NCBI GenBank assembly: GCA_040218145.1
Contig: JAVJQK010000104.1
Span: 186,001-250,000, forward strand
DNA length: 64,000 bases
Direction of reading: 5' to 3'
Source of the DNA: Sandaracinaceae bacterium
GTDB taxonomy: Bacteria > Myxococcota_A > Polyangia > Polyangiales > Sandaracinaceae
The translations under genes and the position numbers were made by a program. How positions within the stretch are numbered: the stretch's first letter is position 1; each line of letters opens with the position of its first letter. The notes beneath the pieces are model-generated. The model saw only the letters and a list, made by a program, of their open reading frames with translations, searched no databases and had not been told where the DNA came from. Shown here one piece after another: positions 7,711-37,318 of this stretch.

Positions 7711-9482
7711 TGCGACTGGCACGCTACGGCACGCCCCTCTCGGGCCACTCCGGCTTCACGCGGGGCTCCCTCCTCGCGTTCGCGGGGTGGCTCGTGCTGG
7801 CGTTCGCGAGCTGCGCGGACGCCGGCGCGCCGGACGGATTCGTCACCGACGGCGGCGCCACGGCCTTCGACGGGAGCCCGGTCTCCCCACCCAACGACCG
7901 CGAGGATCCCGACTTCGACGCCGGGGCCTGCTTCGATGGGCTCGACAACGACGCCGACGGAACGCTCGACTGCGCCGAAGCCGAGTGCGGGGTGCGCGCG
8001 GAGTGCTGCGTGGGCTCGGCCGAGTGCTGCAGCGGCGCGACCCGCCTGAGCACCCTGACCGTGGAGTGCGAGGACGGCCCCGCCTCCGCCTGCGACTCGC
8101 TCGAGGGCCTGACGCTCTTCGGCGCCCCGACGATCGAGCGGACCGGCCTCGTCCCCCAGGGCGGCGCGGGGCACGGCGGCGTGGTGATGCATCCGTCCGT
8201 CGACCCGCGGGCTGGCAACCTCCGGGTGCAGGCGCGCATCGAGGCCCCCACCACGCCGTGCGCCGAGTGCGTCGACCTGGCCGGCATCGCGCTGGTCGAG
8301 GCCGCCCCCGCGCCGGGCGCGCGCGCCGTCGTCTGGCTCGGCGTCGTCGCGGTGAGCTCTCGCGGCGAGGCGCAGGTGGTCGCCAGCGACGAGGTGGTGG
8401 CGACGTTCTCGCTGATGGCGGCGGCGGAGTACGAGATCGAGCTGCGCGCGGACGGCGTCGCGACGGTGTCCGTGGGGTCCGAGTCGGTCGCGCTGACCGA
8501 GCTCGAGCTGCCCCCCTCGATCCAGGTGATCGCCTACGGCCGCACCCAGAACCGCGGCGCGGGCGTGGACGCGGCGCGGCTGCGCGGCGGCGAGGTGTTC
8601 TTCGAGGCCTGCGACATGCCGGCCGCGCTCGAGCGCGACCCGACGCCGCGCCTGCCCACCGTGGCCTCCGGCTTCACGCCGCGCGCCCTCGGGCGGGCCA
8701 CCGCGCTGATGGTGGAGGACCGTCTCCTCACCGTCTTCGCCGACGACGGAGACCTCTATCAGGCGATGGAGACCCGCAGCGGCGACCTGGCGGGACCCGC
8801 CGACCGCAACGACCGCGCGGTCGTCCCGCCGGAGGGGATCGACGACCTGTTCGACCCCGCGCTGGTGGTCGAGGACGGCGCCGTGACGCTCTACTTCGCG
8901 GGCGAGCACGTGAGCGGAGTCCGGCGCATCTTCCGCAGCCGGCGCGAGGGCGACACCTTCGCCGCTCCAGAGGACGTGCTCGCGGTCGACGGAGGCTCGG
9001 TCGACGGCCCGACCGTCTTCAAGAGCCCCGCTGGCCCGTGGCGCATGATCGCCCGGGTCCGGCGCGGCGCGCAGACCTCGCTCGAGCAGTTCGAGGCCAT
9101 CGGCGGCGACACCGGCGCCTGGCGCCCGCTCTCGGTGGTGCGCGCCCCGGCTGCCGCCGACCTGTTCGCGTTCGATCGCGACGACGTCGCCCAGCCCGCC
9201 GTCGTGCGCAGCGCCGACGGGCTCTACCGCCTCTACTACGCGGGGCAGCGAGGCACGGGCTGGTCCATCGGGCTGCTCGTCTCCCAGGATGGGGACGCGT
9301 GGCGGCCGCTCGGCGCCGTGCTCACCCCGGACGGCGAAGGCTTCGACGCGCTCCAGGTACGCGGGCCCGCCCCCGTGCTCCGGACCGACCGCGCCAACGC
9401 GCTGCACCTCTACTACACGGCCAGCGACGGCGTCTCGTCCGCGATTGGCCTCGCTGGACCGGCTGGCACGCTCGGTGAATGA
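7710..9482 (+). CDS. MopE-motif/beta-propeller-like lipoprotein, paralogue A
   Basis: A 590-residue lipoprotein with a hydrophobic leader ending in FASC (Cys35). Next comes CFDGLDNDADGTLDC and a Cys cluster (ECCVGSAECC), then a concanavalin-like beta region ending ... IQVIAYGRTQNR. The last 250 residues contain repeats such as GLYRLYYAGQRGTGWSIGLL and LHLYYTASDG, which resemble blades of five-bladed glycosidase-type propellers. The order is the same as in the two following genes. The start ATG overlaps the upstream stop by one base (TGATG), so translation is coupled. No catalytic residues can be assigned. Confidence 0.85.
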   Translation: MRLARYGTPLSGHSGFTRGSLLAFAGWLVLAFASCADAGAPDGFVTDGGATAFDGSPVSPPNDREDPDFDAGACFDGLDNDADGTLDCAEAECGVRAECCVGSAECCSGATRLSTLTVECEDGPASACDSLEGLTLFGAPTIERTGLVPQGGAGHGGVVMHPSVDPRAGNLRVQARIEAPTTPCAECVDLAGIALVEAAPAPGARAVVWLGVVAVSSRGEAQVVASDEVVATFSLMAAAEYEIELRADGVATVSVGSESVALTELELPPSIQVIAYGRTQNRGAGVDAARLRGGEVFFEACDMPAALERDPTPRLPTVASGFTPRALGRATALMVEDRLLTVFADDGDLYQAMETRSGDLAGPADRNDRAVVPPEGIDDLFDPALVVEDGAVTLYFAGEHVSGVRRIFRSRREGDTFAAPEDVLAVDGGSVDGPTVFKSPAGPWRMIARVRRGAQTSLEQFEAIGGDTGAWRPLSVVRAPAAADLFAFDRDDVAQPAVVRSADGLYRLYYAGQRGTGWSIGLLVSQDGDAWRPLGAVLTPDGEGFDALQVRGPAPVLRTDRANALHLYYTASDGVSSAIGLAGPAGTLGE

Positions 9483-13225: not shown

Positions 13226-14167
13226 GTGGCACGCGCCGAGACGAAGGTGGACGAGACGATGGCGGGGCAGACCCTCGCCGCGGTGGTGCGGGCTCTGCTG
13301 GACGTGCCCTGGAGCAAGGCCAAGCGGCTCTGCACGAGCGGCCGCGTCTTCCTCGACGGCGACGTGTGCACCGACCTGGCGCGGCGCGTGAAGGCGGGCG
13401 CGAAGGTCGCCGTGGACGAGGCGGCGCCCAAAAAGCGCCTCGGCGTGCTCGACCGTGACGCGATCCTCCACTCCGACGCGGACGTCGTCGTGGTGCGCAA
13501 GGACGCGGGCCTGCTCACGCTGCCCTTCCACGGCGACGAGAAGGACACCCTGGTGGACCAGACGCGGGCCGCGCTCGCGCGCATGCTCCCGCGGCGCGCC
13601 AAGGGCCGCGACCCGATGGTCGGGGTCGTCCAGCGCCTCGACAAGGACACGACCGGTGTGCTGGTCTTCGCGCGGAACATGGTGGCCAAGCGCGCGCTCC
13701 AGGACCAGCTCCGCGCGCACACCGTCGGGCGGCGCTACCTCGCGCTCGCGCACGGCGCGGTGAAGACCGAGAGCCACGAGAGCGACATCGTGCAGGACCG
13801 CGGCGACGGCCTGCGCGGGAGCTGGGGGACGCGATCGAACCACCGCGGCGCGCCGCCTCCCAACGCGAAGCGCTCCGTCACCCACGTGCGCCTCGTCGAG
13901 CCGCTGCGAAAGGCGTCGCTCGTCGAGTGCCGGCTCGAGACCGGGCGGCAGCATCAGATCCGCATCCACCTCGCCGAGGCCGGCCACCCGCTCGTGGGAG
14001 AGCGCGTCTACATCCGCGACTTCTCCGCGCCGCAGATCTCCGCGCCGCGCCCGATGCTGCACGCGACGGAGCTGGCGTTCGAGCACCCGCGCACGGGGGA
14101 GCGCCTGCGCTTCTCGGTGCCGCTGCCCGCGGACTTCGAGGCGGCGCTGGCGCGTCTCCGCGGTTGA
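13226..14167 (+). CDS. RluA-family pseudouridine synthase
   Basis: A 313-residue RNA-modifying enzyme that converts uridine to pseudouridine in rRNA or tRNA. An S4-like N-terminal part (SKAKRLCTSGRVFLDG) precedes the catalytic domain with GVVQRLDKDTTGVLVFARN; the Asp in RLDKDT is the expected nucleophile. Later family motifs are present: GRRYLALAHG, and the RLETGRQHQIRIHLAEAGHPLVG block. The target base cannot be predicted. GTG 13226 is the only sensible start. It probably begins the transcription unit that continues into the HTTM module. Confidence 0.92.
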   Translation: MARAETKVDETMAGQTLAAVVRALLDVPWSKAKRLCTSGRVFLDGDVCTDLARRVKAGAKVAVDEAAPKKRLGVLDRDAILHSDADVVVVRKDAGLLTLPFHGDEKDTLVDQTRAALARMLPRRAKGRDPMVGVVQRLDKDTTGVLVFARNMVAKRALQDQLRAHTVGRRYLALAHGAVKTESHESDIVQDRGDGLRGSWGTRSNHRGAPPPNAKRSVTHVRLVEPLRKASLVECRLETGRQHQIRIHLAEAGHPLVGERVYIRDFSAPQISAPRPMLHATELAFEHPRTGERLRFSVPLPADFEAALARLRG

Positions 14168-14201
14168 CGGAACGAGCCCTTCGCGCGAGCGTCGAGCGTC
14201 G

Positions 14202-14849
14202 ATGAGTGAACCGAAGAGCCAAGCGAACGGCCTGTCCACGCGGGTCGCTCAGGCCAGCGCGGCGGTCGTGGCGGTGGGCGCCCTCCTGCTCACGTTCGAC
14301 GTGACGGCCCAGGAGCAGCGCGGCTGGGGCTGGCTGATCCTGGTCGCAGGCGTGCTCGGCCTGCTCGTCGCGGGCGTGATGCGGGGCGCGGAGGACGCCG
14401 CCACGGTGAAGGCGCCGCTCGTCGCCGACGCGCCGAAGGGCAAGGCCGCCACCTGGCTCGGCGTCGCCTTCGGGGTCGGCGTGCTCGTCCAGGCCGTCAT
14501 CCCCTTGCGCTACTACTTCGGCGACGACGCCTACGACGAGCGCTTCGCGTGGCGCATGTTCTCGAACGTGCGCGTCTATCGCTGCGACCTCGGCGCGTTC
14601 GAGACGCGCGACGGATACGAGCGGCCGGTGAACCTGATGGAGACCATCCACGTGGGCTGGGGCAGCCTCCTGCGGCGCAACCGGGAGCCGGTCATGGACG
14701 CCTGGCTCGAGTGGCGGTGCGAGCAAGAGGGGGTGAGCGCGGCGCGCCTGCTGAACCGCTGCGTCTCACCCGCGGGAGAGAGAGCGCCCGACGTCCGGCG
14801 CGCCATCGACTGCGAGCGCGGTGAGATCACCGAAGGGGGGGAGGAATGA
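14202..14849 (+). CDS. HTTM-module partner protein (carboxylase C-domain-like), copy 1
   Basis: A 215-residue membrane protein with three predicted helices (about 18-38, 42-60, 85-104) and a soluble C-terminal domain. Directly after helix 3 comes QAVIPLRYYF (97-106) and RFAWRMF (114-120). This resembles the motif that follows the membrane domain in vitamin K-dependent gamma-carboxylases, where a Q..(I/L)P segment is followed by a (S/A)W.MM-type strand. The stop overlaps the start of the HTTM gene (ATGA), indicating coupled expression. A similar small protein precedes the second HTTM gene at 35146-35568. The interpretation as a detached carboxylase domain is inference. Confidence 0.6.
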   Translation: MSEPKSQANGLSTRVAQASAAVVAVGALLLTFDVTAQEQRGWGWLILVAGVLGLLVAGVMRGAEDAATVKAPLVADAPKGKAATWLGVAFGVGVLVQAVIPLRYYFGDDAYDERFAWRMFSNVRVYRCDLGAFETRDGYERPVNLMETIHVGWGSLLRRNREPVMDAWLEWRCEQEGVSAARLLNRCVSPAGERAPDVRRAIDCERGEITEGGEE

Positions 14850-16480
14850 GCCTGCTGTCGCGCACGCTCTACGTCCCGGTCGCCGCGGTGCGTCCCTACC
14901 TCGCGCTGAAGTGCACCCTCGTGCTCCTCGCCTTCGACGTGTGGATCGCGCGCCTCTACAAGGGGCACGGCCACGGCGCGGGCGGCTTCAACGTCGCGCA
15001 CTTCGAATTGCTCGACGCGGTGCAGCCGTCGATCAGCGCTCCGCTCTTCGTGGGCGTGATCATCCTGACCGGCGCGCTCTGCCTGACGATCGCGATCGCC
15101 TCTCGTCCGCCGCGCTGGCTCATCGGTCTCGCCTTCGTGCTCCACACGTGGAGCTGGGCGATGAGCATGCTGGACAGCTACCAGCATCACTACCTGCTCT
15201 CCATCGTGCTGCTCGCGCTCGTCTTCTTCCCGCGGCTGACGGCCGAGGACGCGCTGCTGCCTCCGTCTTCTCCGAAGAAGCGCGACGCGCCGAGCACCGC
15301 GGCGGAGCGGCGCAAGGGCAAGAAGAAGAAGCGGAAGAAGAGCGCCGACGAGCCGGCCGCCCAGCCCTCGATCCTGTCGCCCGCGTCGCTGACGAGCGCC
15401 GGGGGCTACGCGTTCCTCGCCGCGAGCATCGCCGTCGTCTACGCCTACACCGCGCTCAGCAAGACCGACCCGGAGTGGCTCTCGGGCGCGGCGCTGAAGA
15501 GCGTGCTCCACCTCCAGGAGAACGGGATGCCCGCGCCGGGGCGCGAGGACCCGATCGGGTTCTTCCGCGACCTCGCGGCCAGCTTCGGCCTGGCCGGCGA
15601 GACCTTCTGGTGGTTCATGGGCCACTCGGTGGTCGGCGTGCAGCTCGTCTGCGCGCTCGGGTACCTGCTGGCGCCGTTCCGCGACGTGACGCGCGCAAAG
15701 TGGATGGCTGGGCTCGGCTGGCTCGCGCTGTTCACCGCGCTGAGCTTCCACGTCGGCGCGGAGTACATGGACCTGAAGATCGGCTGGTTCAGCTGGTACA
15801 TGATCGGCTACGCGCTGATCTTCTTCCTCCCCGGTCGCTGGCTCGTCGTCGCGGCGCGCGGGCTGGTGCCCCTGGTCGGCACCTCCCTGGGCCCGCAGGT
15901 CATCGCCGCGCGGATCCTCGTCGCGCTCGTCGCGCTCGTCGTCGGCTTCGCCGTCCTGCCCGTCATCGGCTGGCTCGGCGTCGGGCTGCTGCTGCTGACG
16001 CCGCTCCGCCTGCTGGCGAAGGCGGCCTGGACGCGCGAAGCGGAGGCGCAGGCCGAGCAGACCCATCACGTCGCGCTCGGCGCCGCCGGCCTCGGCGCCG
16101 CGATCCTCGTCGGGGCGGGCTACGTGGCCGACCTGCCCGGCGCGCCCGCGGCCGTGATCGCGGGCGCCGTCCTGCTGGGCGGGGGCGTGATCGGGCTCCT
16201 CGTGTCGAAGGGCCACGCGCGGGCGATCCACGGCTACGGCGTCGGCGCCGCGGTCGCGGGCCTCGCGCTCGTCGCGTCCATGTCTCTCTCGGAGGCGCGG
16301 TGGGACTTCTACCGCAACTACGGCGGCAACCACCGCCGCCTCGGCGAGTGGGCCGTCGCCTACCACGCCTACCAGAAGGCGGTGAGGTACGCGCCCGACG
16401 ACGAAGCGGCCGAGAGCCGCCAGCGACGCGTCGACGAGATGCGCGCCAACATCGAGCGCGACGGCCCGAGGCGCCCGTGA
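14846..16480 (+). CDS. HTTM-domain membrane protein (gamma-carboxylase-like), copy 1
   Basis: A 544-residue polytopic membrane protein of the HTTM (horizontally transferred transmembrane) superfamily, related to vitamin K-dependent gamma-glutamyl carboxylase. Two features match the enzyme family: a His pair before a helix (SYQHHYLL, His114/115), and SKTDPEWLSG with Lys206, in the context of the catalytic-base Lys of human GGCX (KKLDADW). A strongly basic cytoplasmic loop (about 153-167) and a short helical, TPR-like tail are extra. The large luminal domain of GGCX is missing here and may be supplied by the upstream partner. HutF-like gene follows with a GTGA overlap. Confidence 0.75.
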   Translation: MSLLSRTLYVPVAAVRPYLALKCTLVLLAFDVWIARLYKGHGHGAGGFNVAHFELLDAVQPSISAPLFVGVIILTGALCLTIAIASRPPRWLIGLAFVLHTWSWAMSMLDSYQHHYLLSIVLLALVFFPRLTAEDALLPPSSPKKRDAPSTAAERRKGKKKKRKKSADEPAAQPSILSPASLTSAGGYAFLAASIAVVYAYTALSKTDPEWLSGAALKSVLHLQENGMPAPGREDPIGFFRDLAASFGLAGETFWWFMGHSVVGVQLVCALGYLLAPFRDVTRAKWMAGLGWLALFTALSFHVGAEYMDLKIGWFSWYMIGYALIFFLPGRWLVVAARGLVPLVGTSLGPQVIAARILVALVALVVGFAVLPVIGWLGVGLLLLTPLRLLAKAAWTREAEAQAEQTHHVALGAAGLGAAILVGAGYVADLPGAPAAVIAGAVLLGGGVIGLLVSKGHARAIHGYGVGAAVAGLALVASMSLSEARWDFYRNYGGNHRRLGEWAVAYHAYQKAVRYAPDDEAAESRQRRVDEMRANIERDGPRRP

Positions 16481-19338: not shown

Positions 19339-19371
19339 GTGCGTCAGGGGACCTGCGTGCGTCAGGGGACC
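19339..19371. repeat. Direct repeat of GTGCGTCAGGGGACC, 18-bp period
   Basis: Two perfect copies (19339-19353 and 19357-19371). The stop codon of the overlapping lipoprotein gene is inside the second copy. A simple tandem duplication of the gene end could explain it. Confidence 0.7.
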
Positions 19372-21902
19372 AGGTGCACGCGCGCGCCCGAGCCGTCGCC
19401 GCCGGGGGATCCGGCCGCGCCCGGGCTGAAGCCGCCGCGGCCGCCGCGGCCGGGGACCCCGGCCTCGTCGATCACGAGGTCCATACCCAGCGCGTCTCGG
19501 TACGCGCTCGCGTCTCCGCCGCGGCCGACGAGGTAGACGCCGAAGCTCCCGCCGCCGCAGCCGCCGCCGCCGCCGCCGCCCGCGCCGCCGCGGCCGCCGT
19601 CGCCGCCCCGTCCGCCCGTGCGCGCGCACCAGAACATGGTCGGTCCACCGTTGCCGCCGACGCCGCCGCTGCCGCCGTCCGCGCCCACGCCGCCGTCTCC
19701 GCCCACGCCGCCGCTCGCGGTCACGACGCGCACGTCTCGGAAGACCGGGCCCCGGACCGCGCCGGCCCGGAGGCGGATCACCACGCCGACGCTCGCGCCG
19801 CCGCCGCCTCCGCCGGTCGCCCCCGGGGCGCCACAGCCGCCGGCCCCGCCGCCGCCGCCGCTGCCGCCGCTCCGGTCGTCGGTCCGCGTGTCGCAGCCCG
19901 AGGTGCCGCCGATGACGTCGTAGCCCGCGCCCGCGGAGGCGCCGCCGCCGCCGCTGCCGTCTCGGCCCGGCGCGCCCGAGGTGCCGGCCGTGCCCGCGAG
20001 CCGGCCGCTCGTGAGATCGAGCGTGGGAGAGCCGCCGCAGCCGCTGCCCGCCACGCCGTCCCCGCCCGGCGCGCCGTCCCCGCCGTTCGCGGTGTCCCGG
20101 GGGAGCGTGGGGTTGTCGTCGCAGAAGTTGCAGACGCCGCGGTTCGTCGGCGCGTTGTAGGTCAGCTCCGCCGCGTCGCCCGGCATGGGGCCCCGGCCGG
20201 CCGAGGGCGCAGGGTTGGGGACCGCGTCGCGCAGGACCGCGGCGAAGTCACAGACGCCGCCGGTCGTATAGTCCGTGCAACCGGCGTTGCCGCAGGGGCG
20301 GCCGTTCACGCAGCCCGTCTCCGGGCAGTCCGCGGCGCCGCCGTCTCCGCCGCTCACGTCGGTGGCGCGGCAGCTGTGCCGCCCGCCCACGCCGCCCGCC
20401 ACGCGCCGGCAGACCCCGCCGCCGCTCGTGCCCGGCCGCCCGTCGGTTCCGTCCGGGCCGTCGAGCTGGTCGAGGCTCATCAGCCCCCACTCACGGAGGC
20501 GCGCGCTCGAGTCGAGGCCGTTCTGGCCGTCCGAGCCGCGCCCGGCGAACACCTGGAGGTCCCCGAAGCGGACCGAGTCGGTGCAGCCGTCGAGGAACAT
20601 CGCGGTCGAGCCCTCGCCCGCGCCGGTGGCGTCGCCGCCGATCACGGTGAAGCCCTCGATGGCGGCGGGCGTGGTCACGTCGCTGCAGGTGATGGCCGGG
20701 AGCCCGGGCGTGGTCCGCTCGATGATCACCTGGAACAGCTCGAGGTCGCGGTCGCGGAAGTCCGGGCTGTAGCCGCCGAAGATCGAGACGCCGCCGAGCA
20801 CGTTCAGCGGCCCCTCGTAGATGCCGCGCGCGACGAGCACGCTCTTGCCCGCGCTGCGCCCGCGCGCGAGCGCCGCGTTCAGGGTGCGCATCGGCCGCAC
20901 GAGGGTGCCGGGGTTGGTGTCGCTGCCCGTGGTGGTCACGTAGATGAAGAGGTCGTCGTCGTCGGGCGCGCCGTCGCAGTCCGCGTCACCGCCGACGACC
21001 GGGGGCGGGCCCATCCCGTCGAAGCGCTCGCACTCGCAGCCGTTCGCGAGGATGCGATCGACGTCGACGAAGCCCTCGAGACACTCGATCTCGCAGCGCA
21101 CGCCCGCTCCTTCCGGGAGACAGCTCGCCTGCATGTTCGGCCCGGGCTCCACGCACGGGGTGGCGCACGCGCCGCAGTGCAGCCGGTCGACGTAGCGCCC
21201 CGCCTCGTCGCGGAAGTCCTCGTCGACCTGACCGTCGCAGTCGTCGTCCTGGCTGTCGCACGCCTCGGCGAGGGCCGGCGCGCACGGGCCCGGCCCGTCC
21301 ACCCCGCACACCTGGACGCCGACGCAGGCGTGGCCGTCCTCCTCGACCCGGAGGATGCAGGCCAGCTCCGCGCCTTCGCTCATCTCGGAGCAGTTGCACC
21401 AGCCGCTCGTCGGCACGCACTGCGCGTCCTGGCAGGCGAAGCCCTCCGGGCAGAGCACCCCGTCGCCGCAGGGCTGGCCGCAGCGGCGCTGACCGCTCCC
21501 CGTCTCGAGGCAGCGGCTCCCGGGGAGGCGCAGCGCGCAGTCCTCGTCGGCCGTGCACGGCAGGCAAAGGACGGGCACGTCCGGCGCGCAGGAGCCGTCT
21601 CCGGAACGGTGGAACCCGTCTGGACACGCGACGAGCACGCAGACCGGCCCCGAGGCGGCGTCCTCGCAGGCCACCTCGCTCGCGGTGGGGAACGCGTCGG
21701 CGCAGCTCACGCCGCACGTGCCGCAGTGCTCGACGGTCCGGTAGACGCCGTCGTCCGACACGATGCCCTCGTCGATCAGGCCGTCGCAGTCGTCGTCGAA
21801 GAGGTTGCAGCGCTCCTCGGTGCCGCAGAGGTTCGACTCGTAGCAGCCGCCCAGCAGCAGCGCGGCGACGAGCACGCAGCGCAGCTCAGAGAACGATGTC
21901 AC
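19362..21902 (-). CDS. Giant MopE-motif, beta-helix and Gly-rich lipoprotein 1
   Basis: An 846-residue lipoprotein (leader ending LLLGGC). N-terminal third: two MopE-type repeats (CNLFDDDCDGLIDE and CDSQDDDCDGQVDEDFRD, each followed by a CG.C pair) plus further Cys-rich segments. Middle: a DUF1565-like parallel beta-helix (IYVTTTGSDTNPGTLVRPMR, then VARGIYEGPL and IFGGYSPDF). C-terminal third: dense Gly-Gly-X repeats, visible as long GCC/CGC runs in the DNA. GTG 21902 overlaps the upstream paralogue by 17 nt. Likely a large surface or matrix protein; MopE repeats are associated with copper or calcium binding. Confidence 0.85.
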   Translation of the reverse strand: MTSFSELRCVLVAALLLGGCYESNLCGTEERCNLFDDDCDGLIDEGIVSDDGVYRTVEHCGTCGVSCADAFPTASEVACEDAASGPVCVLVACPDGFHRSGDGSCAPDVPVLCLPCTADEDCALRLPGSRCLETGSGQRRCGQPCGDGVLCPEGFACQDAQCVPTSGWCNCSEMSEGAELACILRVEEDGHACVGVQVCGVDGPGPCAPALAEACDSQDDDCDGQVDEDFRDEAGRYVDRLHCGACATPCVEPGPNMQASCLPEGAGVRCEIECLEGFVDVDRILANGCECERFDGMGPPPVVGGDADCDGAPDDDDLFIYVTTTGSDTNPGTLVRPMRTLNAALARGRSAGKSVLVARGIYEGPLNVLGGVSIFGGYSPDFRDRDLELFQVIIERTTPGLPAITCSDVTTPAAIEGFTVIGGDATGAGEGSTAMFLDGCTDSVRFGDLQVFAGRGSDGQNGLDSSARLREWGLMSLDQLDGPDGTDGRPGTSGGGVCRRVAGGVGGRHSCRATDVSGGDGGAADCPETGCVNGRPCGNAGCTDYTTGGVCDFAAVLRDAVPNPAPSAGRGPMPGDAAELTYNAPTNRGVCNFCDDNPTLPRDTANGGDGAPGGDGVAGSGCGGSPTLDLTSGRLAGTAGTSGAPGRDGSGGGGASAGAGYDVIGGTSGCDTRTDDRSGGSGGGGGAGGCGAPGATGGGGGGASVGVVIRLRAGAVRGPVFRDVRVVTASGGVGGDGGVGADGGSGGVGGNGGPTMFWCARTGGRGGDGGRGGAGGGGGGGCGGGSFGVYLVGRGGDASAYRDALGMDLVIDEAGVPGRGGRGGFSPGAAGSPGGDGSGARVHLVP

Positions 21903-24567
21903 GTGCGCCTCCTTCCGCGCCGTCGCCGCCCGGGGCCGCGCCGCCGCCGCCGCGACCGGCGATGCCGGGTCGACCGAGGTCGAAGGTGTTCCCGCTGCGC
22001 CACTCGTCGACGCGCGGGTCGGCGCGTCCGCCGAGCATCCAGATCCCGACCGACGCGCCGCCACACCCGCCGCCGCCGCCGCCGCCGTCGCCGCCGCGCC
22101 CGCCGGTCCCGCCGCGCCCGCCCGGGAAGGGCCCGGCCACGCTGGGCGTCGTGCGGTCGGCGCGCGCCAGCTCCCCGCCGAACGCGCCCGACGAGCCGCG
22201 CCCGCCCGCGCCGCCCGCGCCGCCATCGCCACCCCGGCCGCCGTCGGACGGCGCGAGGATCACGTCGCGCACCTCGGGCAGCCGACGCGGCGTGACGGTG
22301 AAGCGGAAGAGGATGGCGACGCTCGGCGCGCCGCTCGTGCCGGGCATGCCCGGGTCGCCGCCGCAGCCGCCCGCGCCGCCGCCGCCGCCGCCGCCGCCGA
22401 GCCCGTCGGTGAACTCGCACTCTCCGGCGAACCAGCGCATCTCCGCGCCCCCGCCCGCGCCGCCGCCGCCGCCGCCGCTCCCGGGTCGGCCGTCGGTCCC
22501 GGCGCTCGCCACGTCGCCGCGCCAGTCGTCGCCCATGAAGCTCCCGAACGGATCACGGCAGCCGCGCCCCGGGCTGCCCGCGCCGCCCGGTCGTCCGGGC
22601 TCACCCGCGCGAGGCCCGCGGAAATCGGTCGGCACGGTGAAGTCCGCGAGCCCGCAGCAGATCCCGCTCGGCCGCATGCAGCTCGGGCTCTCCATCGAGG
22701 TGATCGGCCCCTGGCTGTCCTGCCCACCGTCGCCGCCGCTCCCGCCCGGGATCACGCCCGCCGCGCGGCCGCTCTGCCCCGCGCCCTGGAAAGACGTGAA
22801 CATGGGACAGCGGGCCGAGCCGCCCTGCCCGCCGCTCACGTCGACGCCGTCACACGTGTTGCGCCCGCCCGACCCGCCCGCGACCGTGTTCATCGGCCCG
22901 CTGGTGCAGTTGTGCGAGGCGTCCTCCACCGACGCGCGCGGCGGCGCGCCCGCGGCGGGCGGCGACATGAAGTCGGAGCCCGAGGTGCCGATCATGCCCG
23001 GCATCCCGTCGCCCGGGACGCCGGCGCGGACCGTCATCTCGCGGAGGGACAGCGACGGCCCCGGATCGAGCGCGTACACGCCGAAGGTGGGGGCCGCGGC
23101 GCGCGACGCGTCCAGGCCACGGAGCTCCAGCCACTCCACGCTCGTCTCGCTGCTCCCCGCACCGCGGATCACCATCGCCGCGCCGCCCGGCGCCGTCGTG
23201 TCGACGGGCGCGCGCACGATCGTGCGGAAGCCGTCCGGGTCGAGCGCGAGGAAGTCGCGGCGGTAGCCGCCGTGCACGAACACCCCGTCGGGGAGCTCCA
23301 CCGTCTCGGCGTAGGTGCCCGACGCGACGAACACGTGCGGTCGCGCCCCCGGCATGCCGATCGACGCGGCGGCCCGGTCGAGCCCGACCTGGAGGGTGCG
23401 GAGCGGGCGGGTGGGCGAGCCCGGCCCATCGTCGTCGCCGTCGGGCGCCACGTAGAAGCTCTGGATCACGATGCCGTCGGCGCCGTCGCAGTTCACGTCG
23501 AGCGCCTCGCCCTCGGCGCCCACCGGCCCCGGCACGTCGCTGAGCGAGCCGACGGTGCACTCGCAGCCGTTCGCGATGTCGAGATCGGCGTCGATGCGGT
23601 CGCCCGGCATGATCCCGTCCGCGGCGTCGGGGCAGGCGAGGACACACCGCGGGGCGAAGGGGTCGCCGCCGCAGACGAGGTCTCCCTCCGGCGCGGTCGA
23701 GAGCGTGCAGTCCACGCCGCACTCGCCGCAGTGGTGGATGTCGAGGCTGTACGCGCCGCGCGCGTCGCGGAAGCCCTCGTCGATCATCCCGTCGCAGTCG
23801 TTGTCGGCCTCGTCGCAGACATCGAGCGGCGCGACGCACTCGCTGATCACGCCGTCGTCGCACACCGCCGACCCCGCGCATCGCTCGCCCATCGGGTCGA
23901 TCAGCGCGCACGCCAGCGTGAACGCGTCGCCCGGGTCACACGCGCAGCTCCCGCCCTCCGGAACACAGACCCCCTCCACGCAGCCGTAGCCGTCCGGACA
24001 GCCCAGCTCACAGGATACCGTGCAGCGCCGCTCGCCCGCGATGAGCGCGCAGCTCGCCGCCGCGAGATCGCCGCAGTCGCCGTCGTCCGCGCACGGGAGG
24101 CAGAGCCGATCGATCGGCACGCAGCGCCCCGTGGTCGACGGCGCGAAGCCGGCCGCGCACTCGAGCGCGACGCAGGTGGGTGAGCCCTCCACGAGCTCAC
24201 ACGCGACCGCGAGCGCCTCGCCCGAAGGCCGGCAAGGCATATTGCAGCCGCCGCAGTGGTCGGGGTGCACGTAGCGGCCGTCTTCGTCGCGGAAGTCCTC
24301 GTCGACGAAGAGGTCCGCGTCCACGCCGCCGTCCAGCCCCGCGTCGGATCCGCCGTCGCGCAGGCCGGCGTCGAAGACCCCGCTGACGCGCAGGCCATCG
24401 AGGTCGTCGTCCAGCCCGTTGCAGCGCTCGGGCTCGGGCTGCGGAAGCTCGCGCTCCTCGGGCGGGTCGTCGATCGTCGCGGTCCGCGCCCCACAGGCCG
24501 GCAGCAGGCCCACGAGCGGCAGGAGCGAAAGGAGAGCGAGCAGCACGCCGTTCGGTCTACGCGACAC
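21886..24567 (-). CDS. Giant MopE-motif, beta-helix and Gly-rich lipoprotein 2
   Basis: An 893-residue paralogue of the next gene with the same order: leader (LLPACG), MopE-type repeats, DUF1565-like helix (FYVAPDGDDDGPGSPTRPLR, VASGTYAETVEL) and Gly-rich tail. In the first repeat the Cys is lost (CNGLDDDLDGLR) and an Asp-Ala-Gly insertion of about 30 residues separates it from VDEDFRDEDG; the second repeat is canonical (CDEADNDCDGMIDEGF). Start GTG 24567 has TATTCT exactly 6 nt upstream, which supports it over longer in-frame starts. Confidence 0.85.
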   Translation of the reverse strand: MSRRPNGVLLALLSLLPLVGLLPACGARTATIDDPPEERELPQPEPERCNGLDDDLDGLRVSGVFDAGLRDGGSDAGLDGGVDADLFVDEDFRDEDGRYVHPDHCGGCNMPCRPSGEALAVACELVEGSPTCVALECAAGFAPSTTGRCVPIDRLCLPCADDGDCGDLAAASCALIAGERRCTVSCELGCPDGYGCVEGVCVPEGGSCACDPGDAFTLACALIDPMGERCAGSAVCDDGVISECVAPLDVCDEADNDCDGMIDEGFRDARGAYSLDIHHCGECGVDCTLSTAPEGDLVCGGDPFAPRCVLACPDAADGIMPGDRIDADLDIANGCECTVGSLSDVPGPVGAEGEALDVNCDGADGIVIQSFYVAPDGDDDGPGSPTRPLRTLQVGLDRAAASIGMPGARPHVFVASGTYAETVELPDGVFVHGGYRRDFLALDPDGFRTIVRAPVDTTAPGGAAMVIRGAGSSETSVEWLELRGLDASRAAAPTFGVYALDPGPSLSLREMTVRAGVPGDGMPGMIGTSGSDFMSPPAAGAPPRASVEDASHNCTSGPMNTVAGGSGGRNTCDGVDVSGGQGGSARCPMFTSFQGAGQSGRAAGVIPGGSGGDGGQDSQGPITSMESPSCMRPSGICCGLADFTVPTDFRGPRAGEPGRPGGAGSPGRGCRDPFGSFMGDDWRGDVASAGTDGRPGSGGGGGGAGGGAEMRWFAGECEFTDGLGGGGGGGGAGGCGGDPGMPGTSGAPSVAILFRFTVTPRRLPEVRDVILAPSDGGRGGDGGAGGAGGRGSSGAFGGELARADRTTPSVAGPFPGGRGGTGGRGGDGGGGGGGCGGASVGIWMLGGRADPRVDEWRSGNTFDLGRPGIAGRGGGGAAPGGDGAEGGARDIVL

Positions 24568-24573
24568 GCGCGG

Positions 24574-24579
24574 AGAATA
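24574..24579 (-). promoter_or_regulatory. TATTCT -10-like hexamer, 6 nt before start
   Basis: On the minus strand TATTCT precedes GTG 24567 by exactly 6 nt, predicting a leaderless mRNA for the two giant lipoproteins. Confidence 0.5.
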
Positions 24580-24740
24580 GCCGTACCGCGCGCGCGCGCC
24601 ATCAAAGCGAAGAATCACGGGGATGTGCGAAGGCATGATGCGAGCCACGAGCGGGGGCAGAGGAATGCGATGAGCTCCCTCCCTCCAGTGCGCCGGACCG
24701 TGCCCAACGTTTCACACTCGTGGGCAGCACACACGGTCGC

Positions 24741-33000: not shown

Positions 33001-34305
33001 ATGACCAAGCACGTCGCGATCGTCGGGAGTGGCCCGGCGGGGTTCTACGCCGCCGAGGCCATCTGCAAGAAGGAGCCGGAGGTTCGGGTCGACATCCTCG
33101 ACCGTCTCCCCACTCCCTACGGGCTCGTTCGGAGCGGCGTCGCCCCCGACCATCAGGGCACGAAGAACGTCTGGCGCGTCTTCCACCGCACCGCGCAGCG
33201 CGAGCAGGTGCAGTACGTGGGCAACGTCGAGGTGGGCCGCGACGTCGGCGTGCCGGAGCTGCTGGAGCTCTACGACGCGGTCGTGCTCGCGGTGGGCGTG
33301 ACCGACGACCGCAAGCTCGGCATCGAGGGCGAGGACCTGCCCGGGGTCTACGGCTCGCGCGCGCTGACCGCCTGGTACAACGGCCACCCCGACTTCGCCG
33401 ACCTGGACCCCGACCTGCGTGGTCCCGGCATCGCGGTGATCGGCAACGGCAACGTCGCGGTCGACGTGGTGCGCGTGCTCGGCCGCACCCGGCCGGAGAT
33501 GGTCAAGACCGACCTGCCCGACTACGCGATGAAGAAGATCGAGGCGTCGGACTACACCGACATCTACATGCTCGGGCGGCGCGGCCCGCTGCAGGCCAGC
33601 TTCACCACCGCGGAGCTGCGTGAGCTGGGCGACATGAGCCAGACCGTGGCCGTGGTGCAGAAGGAGCAGCTCCCGGGCGAGTTCACGGTCGACGATCCGA
33701 AGCAGCAGCGGCTCTTCGAGAAGATCGTCGACACGCTCCGCGGCTACTCGGAGAACGACCCGACCAGCAAGCCCAAGCGGCTGCACATGCGCTGGTTCGC
33801 CTCGCCGGTGCGCGTGCTCGGCGAAGACCGGGTCACCGGGCTCGAGGTGGCGGTGACGAAGATCGACGAGGACGGCCGCGCGGTGAAGACCGGCGAGACC
33901 TACGTGATCGAGGTGGGCACGGTCGTGACGGCCATCGGCTACGTCGCGACGCCGCTCGAGGGCGTGCCGGTCGCGAAGTGGGGCACCTGCTTCAAGAACG
34001 AGGACGGCAAGATCGCCGACCGCCTCTACGCGGTGGGTTGGGCCAAGCGCGGCCCGAGCGGCGTCATCGCCACCAACCGCAAGGACAGCGGCGAGGTCGC
34101 GCACGTGATGCTCGACCAGCTCGAGGACGGCGGGCGCGCCGGGCACGAGGGCCTGCTGAAGCTCCTCGCGCAGCGCGACGTCGCCGCCACGAGCTACGAC
34201 GATTGGGTCCGCATCGACGCGCGAGAGACGGCCGACCTCCCCGAGGGCACGCCGCGCCGGAAGATCACGTCGATGCCGGATCTGCTGAGCGCGACGAAGT
34301 CCTGA
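33001..34305 (+). CDS. fprA: Ferredoxin/adrenodoxin-type NADP reductase
   Basis: A 434-residue FAD enzyme of the FprA/adrenodoxin reductase family that moves electrons between NADPH and ferredoxin. FAD-binding GSGPAGFYAAE (10-20), the PTPYGLVRSGVAPDH block, NADP-binding GNGNVAVDVVRVL and the late GWAKRGPSGVIATNRKDS motif are all typical. Length is normal for the family. Its 3' end overlaps the HTTM copy 2 gene by 41 bp (convergent). Confidence 0.93.
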   Translation: MTKHVAIVGSGPAGFYAAEAICKKEPEVRVDILDRLPTPYGLVRSGVAPDHQGTKNVWRVFHRTAQREQVQYVGNVEVGRDVGVPELLELYDAVVLAVGVTDDRKLGIEGEDLPGVYGSRALTAWYNGHPDFADLDPDLRGPGIAVIGNGNVAVDVVRVLGRTRPEMVKTDLPDYAMKKIEASDYTDIYMLGRRGPLQASFTTAELRELGDMSQTVAVVQKEQLPGEFTVDDPKQQRLFEKIVDTLRGYSENDPTSKPKRLHMRWFASPVRVLGEDRVTGLEVAVTKIDEDGRAVKTGETYVIEVGTVVTAIGYVATPLEGVPVAKWGTCFKNEDGKIADRLYAVGWAKRGPSGVIATNRKDSGEVAHVMLDQLEDGGRAGHEGLLKLLAQRDVAATSYDDWVRIDARETADLPEGTPRRKITSMPDLLSATKS

Positions 34306-35149
34306 AGAGCCGTCGCTCCCACGGCAGGAAGGTCACCAGGAAGAGCGCCATCGAGGCGCCGAACGTGCTGACCATCGTCGTCGTGTCGAGCACGACGTGC
34401 AGGGCGAGGCCCAGCGCCACGCCGAGGAGCCGCGTCTTTCGCCACGCCAGCAGCGGCACCAGCGCGAGCTCCCAGAGCGCGATCGCGGTCGCCATGCCCG
34501 CGTGGCCGACGAGCCCGAGGCCCGCGTCCCAGAAGACCCCCTCGAACGGGAAGCGCTCCGCGATCAGCCGGAGAGAGGTGCCATCGAGCCAGCGCGGGTC
34601 GAGCTTGGCGAGGCCGGCCGCGCCGTAGATCACCAGGGCCTGGAGGCGCCAGAGCGTCAGCGGCCAGCGCGGCGCCGAGGGATCGCCGCGCCGGATCACG
34701 GCGAGCCTCGCGTCGCACGGCGTCAGCGCGACGAGCGCGCAGCTGAGCCAGAGCAGGTGCAGGTGGTGGAAATACCGCGCCGCGTCGAGCGCCATGAGCC
34801 CGTAGCCCGCGATCGCGAGGAGCAGCGCCGCGGGGCGCGCGCGGATCCCGAGCAGCACCAGCCCCGCGAGCGGCAGCCGCGCCCACGCGAGGGCGGCGGC
34901 GACGAGCCCGTGCGGCGACGGAAGCCCCGGGACGAGCGGCATCTCGAGCCAGGGCGTCTCCGCGGGATCGGCGCCCGGGGCGTGGTCGAGGCCCGAGACC
35001 CAGGCGTGGTGATCGAGCTGCAGAAACGGGGCGGTCCAATCCGAGACGCGCAGCAAGACGAGGGTCGCGACGCCGACGCGCAAGATGGCGTAGACGAGCG
35101 GGTCCACCTCGCCCGCCCAGAGCGCGTCCCAGCGCGCCCGCACGCTCAC
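34265..35149 (-). CDS. HTTM-domain membrane protein (gamma-carboxylase-like), copy 2
   Basis: A 294-residue polytopic membrane protein of the HTTM superfamily. Like copy 1 it has the His pair before a helix (RYFHHLHLLWL, His128/129) and the Lys context GLAKLDPRWLDG (Lys182), which closely matches GGCX (KKLDADWVEG). It contains only the membrane domain and ends shortly after, so no soluble carboxylase domain is attached. GTG 35149 overlaps the stop of the small partner gene (GTGA). Third gene of a coupled unit beginning with a TSP3 lipoprotein. Confidence 0.78.
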   Translation of the reverse strand: MSVRARWDALWAGEVDPLVYAILRVGVATLVLLRVSDWTAPFLQLDHHAWVSGLDHAPGADPAETPWLEMPLVPGLPSPHGLVAAALAWARLPLAGLVLLGIRARPAALLLAIAGYGLMALDAARYFHHLHLLWLSCALVALTPCDARLAVIRRGDPSAPRWPLTLWRLQALVIYGAAGLAKLDPRWLDGTSLRLIAERFPFEGVFWDAGLGLVGHAGMATAIALWELALVPLLAWRKTRLLGVALGLALHVVLDTTTMVSTFGASMALFLVTFLPWERRLFRTSSRSADPAST

Positions 35150-35568
35150 TCGCACGCGCGCTCCAGGCTCCGATCGTCGAGCGGCGCGCCCGCGCCGTCC
35201 TGGAACTCGATCCGCACGTGCACGCGCGCGCGGCGCGGGTCCTGTCGGCACGCCAGCTCGGCCAGCGCCTCGAGCCGGCCCGCGACGAGGCGCGCCTGGG
35301 TCTCTCCGAGCCGGAAGGCGTCGCTCCCCCCGAGCACCCGGCGGGCGTCGCGCGTCGCGTGCGGGAGCAGCGCGCGGACGGGCAGCTGATAGGCCGTTCC
35401 ATCGCGCCGCTCCTCGAAGAGCGTGAGCCGATAGCGGACCGGCTCGGTGAACATGCGGAAGCCCCCGACGGGGGTGACCTCCAGCGCCGCGAGCGCGGGC
35501 AGGAGGAGCATGGCCAGCACGGCCGCGAGCAGCGCCGCGTCGGGCGGGCGGCGCCGCTCGGGCGTCAT
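35146..35568 (-). CDS. HTTM-module partner protein (carboxylase C-domain-like), copy 2
   Basis: A 140-residue protein with one N-terminal membrane helix (about 11-30), then GGFRMF (35-40) and a beta-rich domain (YRLTLFEERRDG, VHVRIEFQDG). The position and RMF motif match copy 1 (RFAWRMF), and the sequence order (WxMM-like strand, DG turn, Cys-containing helix, I/V-x-I strand) recalls the luminal domain of GGCX. Overall identity to copy 1 is low. ATG 35568 sits on the upstream stop (TGATG). Proposed as the separately encoded extracytoplasmic part of a carboxylase-like enzyme; this is inference. Confidence 0.55.
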   Translation of the reverse strand: MTPERRRPPDAALLAAVLAMLLLPALAALEVTPVGGFRMFTEPVRYRLTLFEERRDGTAYQLPVRALLPHATRDARRVLGGSDAFRLGETQARLVAGRLEALAELACRQDPRRARVHVRIEFQDGAGAPLDDRSLERACE

Positions 35569-36422
35569 CAGATCAGGATCGGGCAGAACCCCGGCATCAC
35601 GAGCACGACCACCTCGGTCGCGATCGCGTCGCCGCCCACCGTGGCGCGGAGCGTGACCACCGACGTCGGCGGCGAGGGGTTCTCGATGCCGCGCGCGGAG
35701 CCGACCGAGAAGGTGAGCACCGAGCCCGGCCGCACGTTGGTGAACGTGGTGTCCGACGCGTCGCCGGCCGGCATCCCGTCGGGGTGCGAGGCGGAGACCG
35801 CGGCGACCACCGTGAACTGCCCCTCGAAGGGCAGGTAGCCGTCGGTGTTCGCCAGCTCGAGCGCCACGGTCGCGTCGAGGGAGACCGTCGCGTCGTCCGG
35901 GATGGTCACGGTGACGCTCGCCGTGCCGCCGTGGCACTCGACCTCGTGGACCGCGAGCGCGCCGTCGGCGCAGCCGCCGAAGCCGACCTCGTCGAGATCC
36001 GAGCAGCCGTCTCCGTCGGAGTCGGCCAGGCACGCGTCGGTCCCGGCCTCGCGCTCGTTCGCGTCGGGCAGGCCGTCGTCGTCGCTGTCGAGGTCGAGGT
36101 AGTCGTCGAACATGTCCGTGTCGCAGTTACGCGGACGAGTGCAACCCGGGTTGTCGTGACCGCGCTCGTCGGTGTCGGAGTTCCCGTCCCCGTCCGAGTC
36201 GGTGTCGATGATGTTCTCCAGGCCGTCCCCGTCGAAGTCGCCGTCGCCCTCGTAGAGGTCGATGATGCCGTCTCCGTCGGTGTCCCGGTTCATGCGCTCA
36301 CACAGCGGGCGTGGGCCCTGGTCCGCCATGACGCCGGCGTCGTCGTTGCGATCGTGGCTGCAGAAGCAGCCCGAGATGAAGAACGCACAGAGCGAAGCGA
36401 AGACGAGCACCAGGTGACGCAT
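35568..36422 (-). CDS. Lipoprotein with thrombospondin type-3-like repeats
   Basis: A 284-residue lipoprotein (lipobox FISGC). Residues 40-150 carry calcium-binding TSP3-type repeats (DTDGDGIIDLYEGDGDFDGDG, DSDGDGNSDTDE, DLDSDDDGLPD, DSDGDGCSDLDE). The C-terminal half is an Ig-like beta domain (VTVTIPDDATVSLDATVALEL). It is the first gene of a three-gene coupled unit with the HTTM copy 2 module, so it is a natural candidate for the module's substrate or partner. CATTCT lies 6 nt before the ATG. Confidence 0.85.
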   Translation of the reverse strand: MRHLVLVFASLCAFFISGCFCSHDRNDDAGVMADQGPRPLCERMNRDTDGDGIIDLYEGDGDFDGDGLENIIDTDSDGDGNSDTDERGHDNPGCTRPRNCDTDMFDDYLDLDSDDDGLPDANEREAGTDACLADSDGDGCSDLDEVGFGGCADGALAVHEVECHGGTASVTVTIPDDATVSLDATVALELANTDGYLPFEGQFTVVAAVSASHPDGMPAGDASDTTFTNVRPGSVLTFSVGSARGIENPSPPTSVVTLRATVGGDAIATEVVVLVMPGFCPILI

Positions 36423-36532: not shown

Positions 36533-37318
36533 ATGGAGCCCGAGCGTGACGAGGAGCCGGAGGGCGGCGGGACGCGGTTCGCGCTCGTCGTGGCCTGCGT
36601 CGCGATCACGATCGTCAACACCGTCGTTCCGTTCGGGGACGTCATCCTCTACCCGTTCACCCTCTTCGGGACCTGGGTCCACGAGATGGGCCACGGCCTG
36701 ACGGCGCTCGCGCTCGGCGGGCAGCTCGACGCGCTCGAGATCTTCTGGAACGCGTCCGGGCTCGCCCACTGCCGGGGCTACGAAGACGGCTGGCCGCGCG
36801 CGCTGGTCTCGATGGGCGGGCTGCTCGCCCCTCCCCTGCTCGGCGCGTTCATCCTCGCCTTCGCGCGTGGCCCGCGCCGCGCGACGATGGTGCTCTGGGG
36901 CCTCTCTGCGGTCATGCTGCTCAGCGTCGCGCTCTGGGTGCGGAGCGCGGCGGGCTTCGTCGCGGTGCCCGGCGTCGCGTTCCTGATCGGGCTGCTCGCG
37001 AAGGAGGGCAGCCCCACCCTCAAGCACGTCGGCGCGCAGGGCCTGGGCGTGCTCCTGGCGCTCGATACGATCTTCGGCGTCGACTACCTCTTCACCTCGA
37101 CCGCCTTCATCGACGGGGAGGAGCGCGCGTCGGACGTGGCCAACATCGCGTCGAGCGTGGCCGGCCACTGGCTGCTCTGGGGCGTCGTGCTCGCGGTGAT
37201 CTCCTTCGCGCTGCTGGCGCTCGGGCTGAAGCTCGCGTGGATGTCGCCGATGCGGCTCGGCCGGCCTTCGATGCGAGAAACGAGCGAGCCCTTTCCGAGC
37301 GACGACTCCTCGGCGTAG
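36533..37318 (+). CDS. M50-like membrane metalloprotease
   Basis: A 261-residue polytopic membrane protein with a zinc-protease HExxH motif (HEMGHG, His50-His54) at the end of helix 1, as in M50/M50B site-2-type proteases. Five or six further hydrophobic segments follow. The later Asp motif of the family is less clear: LALDTIFGVDYL may supply it. No PDZ domain is present. ATG 36533 was chosen since upstream in-frame sequence is not membrane-like. Substrate unknown. Confidence 0.78.
   Translation: MEPERDEEPEGGGTRFALVVACVAITIVNTVVPFGDVILYPFTLFGTWVHEMGHGLTALALGGQLDALEIFWNASGLAHCRGYEDGWPRALVSMGGLLAPPLLGAFILAFARGPRRATMVLWGLSAVMLLSVALWVRSAAGFVAVPGVAFLIGLLAKEGSPTLKHVGAQGLGVLLALDTIFGVDYLFTSTAFIDGEERASDVANIASSVAGHWLLWGVVLAVISFALLALGLKLAWMSPMRLGRPSMRETSEPFPSDDSSA

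Follow-up and report, generated by a model that had tools for sequence, protein, structure and literature searches.

A three-gene cassette was analysed in a 64,000-nucleotide stretch of DNA (hereafter the window) from a marine myxobacterium of the Sandaracinaceae (genome G000, 11.06 Mb; window at C104:186001-250000). The cassette encodes a lipoprotein with calcium-type repeats, a small protein with a single transmembrane (TM) helix (the partner) and an HTTM protein. From comparison of their sequences, it is somewhat probable that the partner and the HTTM protein constitute a split enzyme of the VKGC type, which would use a quinol to modify an exported protein, likely the co-encoded lipoprotein. 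The initial annotation of the window had described the three genes, their overlapping ends, the motif GGFRMF in the partner and the motifs AKLDPRW (with Lys182) and FHH in the HTTM protein, and all of these were recovered. The lipoprotein stop and the partner start meet in TGATG, with a 1-bp overlap, and the partner stop and the HTTM start meet in GTGA, with a 4-bp overlap. A scan for promoters and terminators gave none.

A second assembly of the species carries the partner-HTTM pair with 99% identity; Sandaracinaceae bacterium MED-G138 is a same-species assembly. Moreover, HTTM orthologues in G047 (50% identity) and G046 (46%) adjoin partner orthologues of 42% and 38% identity, respectively, with the order kept, which argues against a chance arrangement. 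Conservation of the three-gene order in other myxobacteria, which the initial annotation had proposed as a check, was found in G047, again with overlapping ends. A search across the named genomes gave no loci beyond the three already found.

Partner genes and fused modules across Polyangiales

Pairing was surveyed at the retrievable non-VKGC HTTM loci of 20 Polyangiales genomes and the window genome, 74 in total, with neighbourhoods read both with a custom open reading frame scorer and by eye. An automatic classifier assigned 43 loci to a partner class, 16 to a fused class and 15 to neither; on manual reading, four false partners (L085, L109, L125 and one of those at L113) were moved to the fused class and 14 of the remaining loci (L097 among them) to the partner class. 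A small partner gene, with a single TM helix where the start was intact, was thus present directly upstream of the HTTM gene at 53 of the 74 loci, and most of these partner genes overlap the HTTM gene by exactly 4 bp. At 20 loci without a partner, the HTTM protein itself carries a C-terminal TM helix and a W-x-M-F-like motif (for example QGWGMFAPNP, DQYWSMFAQP and AQEWSMYVD). The one remaining locus is cut by a contig end, and no orphan HTTM gene was found at any of the 74.

HTTM proteins are present in 130 of the 183 genomes of the order, and in all seven genomes with a match to the partner, the partner adjoins an HTTM gene. Among the 183 genomes, DUF5819 has five matches (L065-L069), all directly upstream of an HTTM gene, and two matches to the SdpA family are the partners at L127 and L128. 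In addition, profile comparison links DUF5819 to the fused module (E 4e-7). The occurrence of the two modules in split or fused form suggests, by the Rosetta-stone argument, that the partner and HTTM protein work as one unit, and the design seen across the order is probably that of a real two-part protein-modifying machine. The initial annotation had argued for a real two-component system from the two pairs in the window; the survey lends this strong support, and the occurrence of the partner and HTTM genes apart in most genomes, which would have spoken against it, was looked for and not seen.

Several other arrangements of HTTM genes were encountered. L113 (in G135) contains two tandem fused HTTM genes, each encoding about 720-755 aa with a WxMFAP-like module. 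The position of DUF5819 upstream of HTTM genes, together with the related C-terminal fusion, provides a hint of function for a family that Pfam lists as of unknown function. In the window genome, genes for an imelysin and a DUF4856 protein come before a fused VKGC-like HTTM gene (L046, 6111-10249), and genes of similar appearance precede the fused HTTM gene in G180 and G181 (L058 and L059). A third family, with an FGFRMFSESS partner and an HTTM protein, is present in several f11 genomes (Table 1), with genes for an MBOAT acyltransferase and a GDSL/SGNH protein within a few kb, hinting at an acylation-related client.

Relation of the HTTM protein and its partner to GGCX

The HTTM protein matches PF05090 at 61.6 bits (cut-off 27.7) over residues 94-267, and a profile of three HTTM orthologues matches human GGCX with E 6e-7. 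Alignment of GLAKLDPRW with GVKKLDADW makes Lys182 the equivalent of GGCX Lys218, which acts as the base in deprotonating the hydroquinone of vitamin K (PMC12589487). Further equivalents are H128 and H129 of the FHH motif (residues 127-129) for N159 and H160, and H251 for H287 (offset 36). The AlphaFold2 (AF2) model, built from a four-sequence alignment, is poor (pLDDT 47.5) and was used only for the register to GGCX; GGCX accounted for each of its top 12 Foldseek matches, well separated from whatever ranked next, and in VIA-align residues 172-257 were paired with GGCX 208-293, an offset of +36 as in the sequence alignment. Lys182 is aligned in 50 of the 53 paired HTTM proteins and His251 is present in all 50 that reach that position.

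In GGCX, N159, H160 and Y395 hold the substrate Glu (PMC12589487). All 15 fused VKGC-type proteins compared retain the N-H pair, but it is variable among paired HTTM proteins: the window protein has HH, with the H160 equivalent kept and that of N159 not, and relatives in another clade mostly have T, N or S at one position. Retention of the Lys and His without the N-H pair suggests that conservation of the site extends to its quinone side but not to its Glu side. The HTTM chain ends about 28 residues past the match, so that there is no propeptide-binding domain (PBD) on the same chain; a similar module is encoded by the upstream gene.

These data also bear on the possibility of gamma-carboxylation proper, in which the pair would convert Glu residues of the calcium repeats into Gla and thereby strengthen calcium binding. 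The homology of the HTTM protein with GGCX, including the equivalents of K218 and, in the window gene, H160, would be consistent with such an activity, as would the calcium-type repeats of the neighbouring lipoprotein and the VKOR homologues present in eight of eight genomes tested, though VKOR is not specific. Nevertheless, gamma-carboxylation appears very unlikely, since the Glu-holding pair varies as described, the TSP3 region of the lipoprotein contains 31 Asp and 6 Glu residues without a Gla-like Glu cluster, and no Glu is invariant in the Cys-rich family of candidate clients from the other clade. Gamma-carboxylated residues had been raised in the initial annotation as a modification to seek in the lipoprotein; nothing specific was found in their favour, and Glu gamma-carboxylation of the TSP3 repeats is disfavoured.

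The partner is composed of a basic N-terminus, a TM helix (residues 9-29), the GGFRMF motif (35-40) and an extracytoplasmic alpha/beta domain, with invariant cysteines at C107 and C139; on the positive-inside rule, the basic N-terminus suggests that this domain faces the periplasm. The protein matches no Pfam family, and NCBIfam gave nothing meaningful. Membership of DUF5819 (PF19136) or of the SdpA family (TIGR04034) was considered and rejected, since profile search of the partner gave no match to either model up to E 1, and neither family has a match in the window genome.

Similarity of the partner to the VKGC C-terminus was detected through related partner families, denoted P (the window partner), Q (the FGFRMFSESS partners) and S (the partner of the first pair in the window). 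With hhalign, P is connected to Q (E 5e-7), Q to S (E 8e-5) and S to the VKGC C-terminus (E 7e-7). When P, Q and S are combined, the resulting profile matches the VKGC C-terminus with E 6e-5 over 110 columns, TM helix on TM helix and motif on motif. In the controls, none of 60 column-shuffled and none of 60 block-shuffled profiles per comparison reached the scores of this chain. For the comparisons F-D and SdpA-D, one column shuffle each scored above 130, an outlier for which there is no explanation, and these two links therefore rest on the block shuffles. The partner RMF falls on S398-W-D-M401-M402 of GGCX, with the bacterial YSWHM aligned with GGCX YSWDMM. The GGCX linker is membrane-embedded, with M401 lining the naphthoquinone pocket, M401 and M402 helping to keep the vitamin K pocket apart from the Glu pocket, and S398 contacting K217 (PMC12589487).

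The alignment of RMF with this linker is the basis for proposing an active site completed in trans. The HTTM protein would be the quinone-binding, catalytic TM half, with Lys182 as the base, and the partner, resembling a detached TM9-linker-PBD module, would contribute the final TM helix, a linker (GFRMF) embedded in the membrane and an extracytoplasmic substrate-docking domain. Physical assembly of the two halves would close the quinone pocket, and at the outer face of the inner membrane a reduced quinone (menaquinol) would then drive modification of an exported protein. The co-encoded lipoprotein would be the most likely client, perhaps through its C-terminal domain, and the product is probably not that of Glu to Gla conversion.

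The lipoprotein as candidate client, and the surrounding genes

The lipoprotein has a signal peptide with a lipobox-like ISGC, Asp-rich TSP3-like repeats spanning about 100 aa and a C-terminal domain of about 130 aa. Its Pfam scores (TSP_3, 14 bits; TSP3_bac, 13.6 bits) are under the cut-off of 25, and a homologue at L052 (12875-13711) passes the TSP3 cut-off at 29.8 bits. At the equivalent place in G047 there is a TSP3 lipoprotein with 39% identity over 203 residues; a second is encoded downstream of the HTTM gene in that genome, as are two in G046, and a C-terminal domain containing conserved Cys is common to the TSP3 lipoproteins beside pairs. A cytochrome c/MauG-like lipoprotein gene is also located downstream of the pair in G047 (L051, 9614-11449) and G046 (L052, 10498-11976), between the pair and the further TSP3 lipoprotein genes.

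In another clade (G107, G110 and G111), the genes next to homologous pairs encode small lipoproteins in which about eight Cys are conserved and, as noted, no Glu is invariant. A profile of this Cys-rich family gave 11 strong matches, 10 of which are beside a pair. Five matches lie outside the set used to build the profile; four of these are beside a pair (one in G110, two in G111 and a weak one, 4e-5, in G072) and the fifth, in G111 (C396), is not. Linkage in two clades, involving two unrelated lipoprotein families, makes the co-encoded lipoprotein a plausible client. Also in favour of a client role, the family of C-terminal domains found in the TSP3 lipoproteins beside pairs is close to absent elsewhere in the 183 genomes. 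TSP3 genes are moderately common, with 11-17 repeat matches per genome, so that a TSP3 neighbour alone is weak evidence; the overlapping junction and the recurrence of the arrangement are better evidence for a client link.

Several observations weigh against a split VKGC-type enzyme that acts on the lipoprotein. The direct hhalign comparison of P with the VKGC C-terminus is not significant (E 0.35), the connection passes through two other families, and without S the P+Q profile is barely above the column shuffles (24.9 versus 24.8). The AF2 model of the partner (pLDDT 71) gave no clear PDB match and GGCX was not listed; the best fold match (VIA Z 5.8) was to unrelated proteins, and the missing match is no evidence for a new fold. 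With regard to the client, the counts of lipoprotein linkage are partly circular, since the profiles were built from sequences at pair loci. A profile of the C-terminal domain gave, in the 183 genomes, one more strong match (E below 1e-18) outside the loci and species, which is a G046 paralogue (G046:C8) that is not beside a pair; a weaker match (1e-9) is present in G053. In addition, no lipoprotein gene lies beside most of the HTTM-partner pairs in the order.

This last observation would also be expected if the lipoprotein were a mere operon passenger of a split VKGC-like enzyme that in truth acted on a lipid, on a quinone or on some other exported protein, and other pair families are found near MBOAT/GDSL or RluA genes instead. 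Such a passenger is nonetheless considered unlikely, since the overlapping junction between the lipoprotein and partner genes is kept where the HTTM protein is only 50% identical, and homologous pairs in another clade again have lipoproteins next to them.

Maturation of the SdpAB kind, in which the pair would cause cleavage of the lipoprotein and free a secreted, perhaps antibacterial, C-terminal peptide, was also weighed. SdpA and SdpB are needed for production of the SDP peptide from SdpC in Bacillus subtilis (PMC6818787), SdpA-family partners precede HTTM genes in the order, and the C-terminal end of the lipoprotein is fairly hydrophobic. However, the SdpA model gave no match to the window partner, the lipoprotein has no SdpC-type match in NCBIfam, and the final residues diverge among homologous lipoproteins. 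Moreover, no SdpI-like immunity gene was recognised by reading the neighbouring genes, although no profile search was made for one. Cleavage of this kind therefore seems improbable, and modification of the lipoprotein by a split quinol-using enzyme remains the favoured reading.

The coordinates of the cassette, of the first pair in the window and of related loci are collected in Table 1.

Table 1. Positions of the cassette genes, the first pair and related loci (window coordinates, or coordinates within the locus named)
Feature	Position	Strand	Description
Lipoprotein gene	36422..35568	minus	284 aa; ISGC lipobox, Asp-rich TSP3-like repeats, C-terminal domain; candidate client
Partner gene	35568..35146	minus	140 aa; one TM helix, GGFRMF
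HTTM gene	35149..34265	minus	294 aa; GTG start; proposed catalytic TM domain
First-pair partner	14202..14849	plus	215 aa; DERFAWRMFS; family S, clearest similarity to VKGC C-terminal domain
First-pair HTTM	14846..16480	plus	544 aa; SKTDPEW Lys, TPR tail
G047 cassette (L051)	lipoprotein 7316-8143, partner 8140-8559, HTTM 8556-9479		overlapping ends
FGFRMFSESS family loci	L062 7833-15979; L054 1487-8721; L060 3-8201		

The first pair, about 18 kb from the cassette, has the same order of partner and HTTM gene with a 4-bp overlap, and its HTTM protein scores 24.6 bits against PF05090, slightly under the cut-off. Recent duplication as the origin of the two window pairs was rejected, since their partners belong to different families (P2 versus S2, hhalign E 0.003). 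Pairs of the first-pair family (DERFAWRMFS partner and HTTM) are also found in G180, G046, G047 and G060 (L117, L105, L110 and L095), and in G180, as in the window (13259-16480), the pair is preceded by a gene for an RluA-type pseudouridine synthase.

The cassette is flanked by a gene for an oxidoreductase of the pyridine-nucleotide-disulphide type (33001-34305, plus strand), which converges on the HTTM gene, and by a divergent gene for an M50B-like peptidase (36533-37318). Elsewhere in the window, two adjacent genes (19362-21902 and 21886-24636) encode large, secreted-looking proteins with DDDCDGxIDEG-like repeats followed by long glycine-rich tails.

Comparison with known systems

HTTM, VKGC and SdpAB are already known. 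In the literature searched, no earlier description was found of the general split-or-fused rule, of the partner motif as a counterpart of the GGCX quinone-pocket linker or of the lipoprotein cassette, and a literature search on DUF5819 and bacterial VKGC homologues revealed nothing relevant. The DUF5819 (PF19136) and HTTM arrangement resembles the window system in the partner directly upstream, the WxMFAPxP-like motif and the fusion of the module to HTTM C-termini as well. It differs in that Pfam does not place the window partner in DUF5819, and the partner groups share the motif only, without profile similarity.

VKGC and GGCX share with the window system the TM domain of the HTTM protein, with equivalents of Lys218 and His287, and a region comprising TM9, the YSWDMM linker and the propeptide-binding domain, with which the partner aligns via related families. 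In contrast, the window system consists of two proteins, the N159-H160 pair is not conserved across the subfamily, the docking domain is much shorter and there is no Gla-type substrate. The window genome also encodes two fused VKGC-like proteins (C67 and C147). A broader and more doubtful proposal is that the HTTM class as a whole may comprise obligate two-module, quinone-dependent protein modifiers, split or fused, in which the docking half would supply active-site residues and would be matched to its client (TSP3 lipoproteins, Cys-rich lipoproteins or SdpC), with a reaction other than Glu carboxylation.

The best-characterised analogue is SdpA-SdpB, which provides an experimental precedent for a partner and an HTTM protein acting on a co-encoded secreted protein, SdpC (PMC6818787). 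Both systems have a small, one-TM partner followed by an HTTM gene and a co-encoded secreted client or candidate client, and the motif is in a similar position (WKFFT in SdpA-family partners). They differ in that the candidate client in the window is a larger lipoprotein that is not SdpC, the window partner lies outside TIGR04034, and comparison of the SdpA profile with that of the window partner shows no clear relationship (E 0.009 to P+Q). If partners are detached docking domains of the GGCX type that complete the quinone pocket, the unannotated gene beside each HTTM gene would gain a role, the co-encoded lipoproteins would become named, testable substrates for the bacterial HTTM family, which is common and for the most part without an assigned function, and SdpAB would acquire a structural framework.

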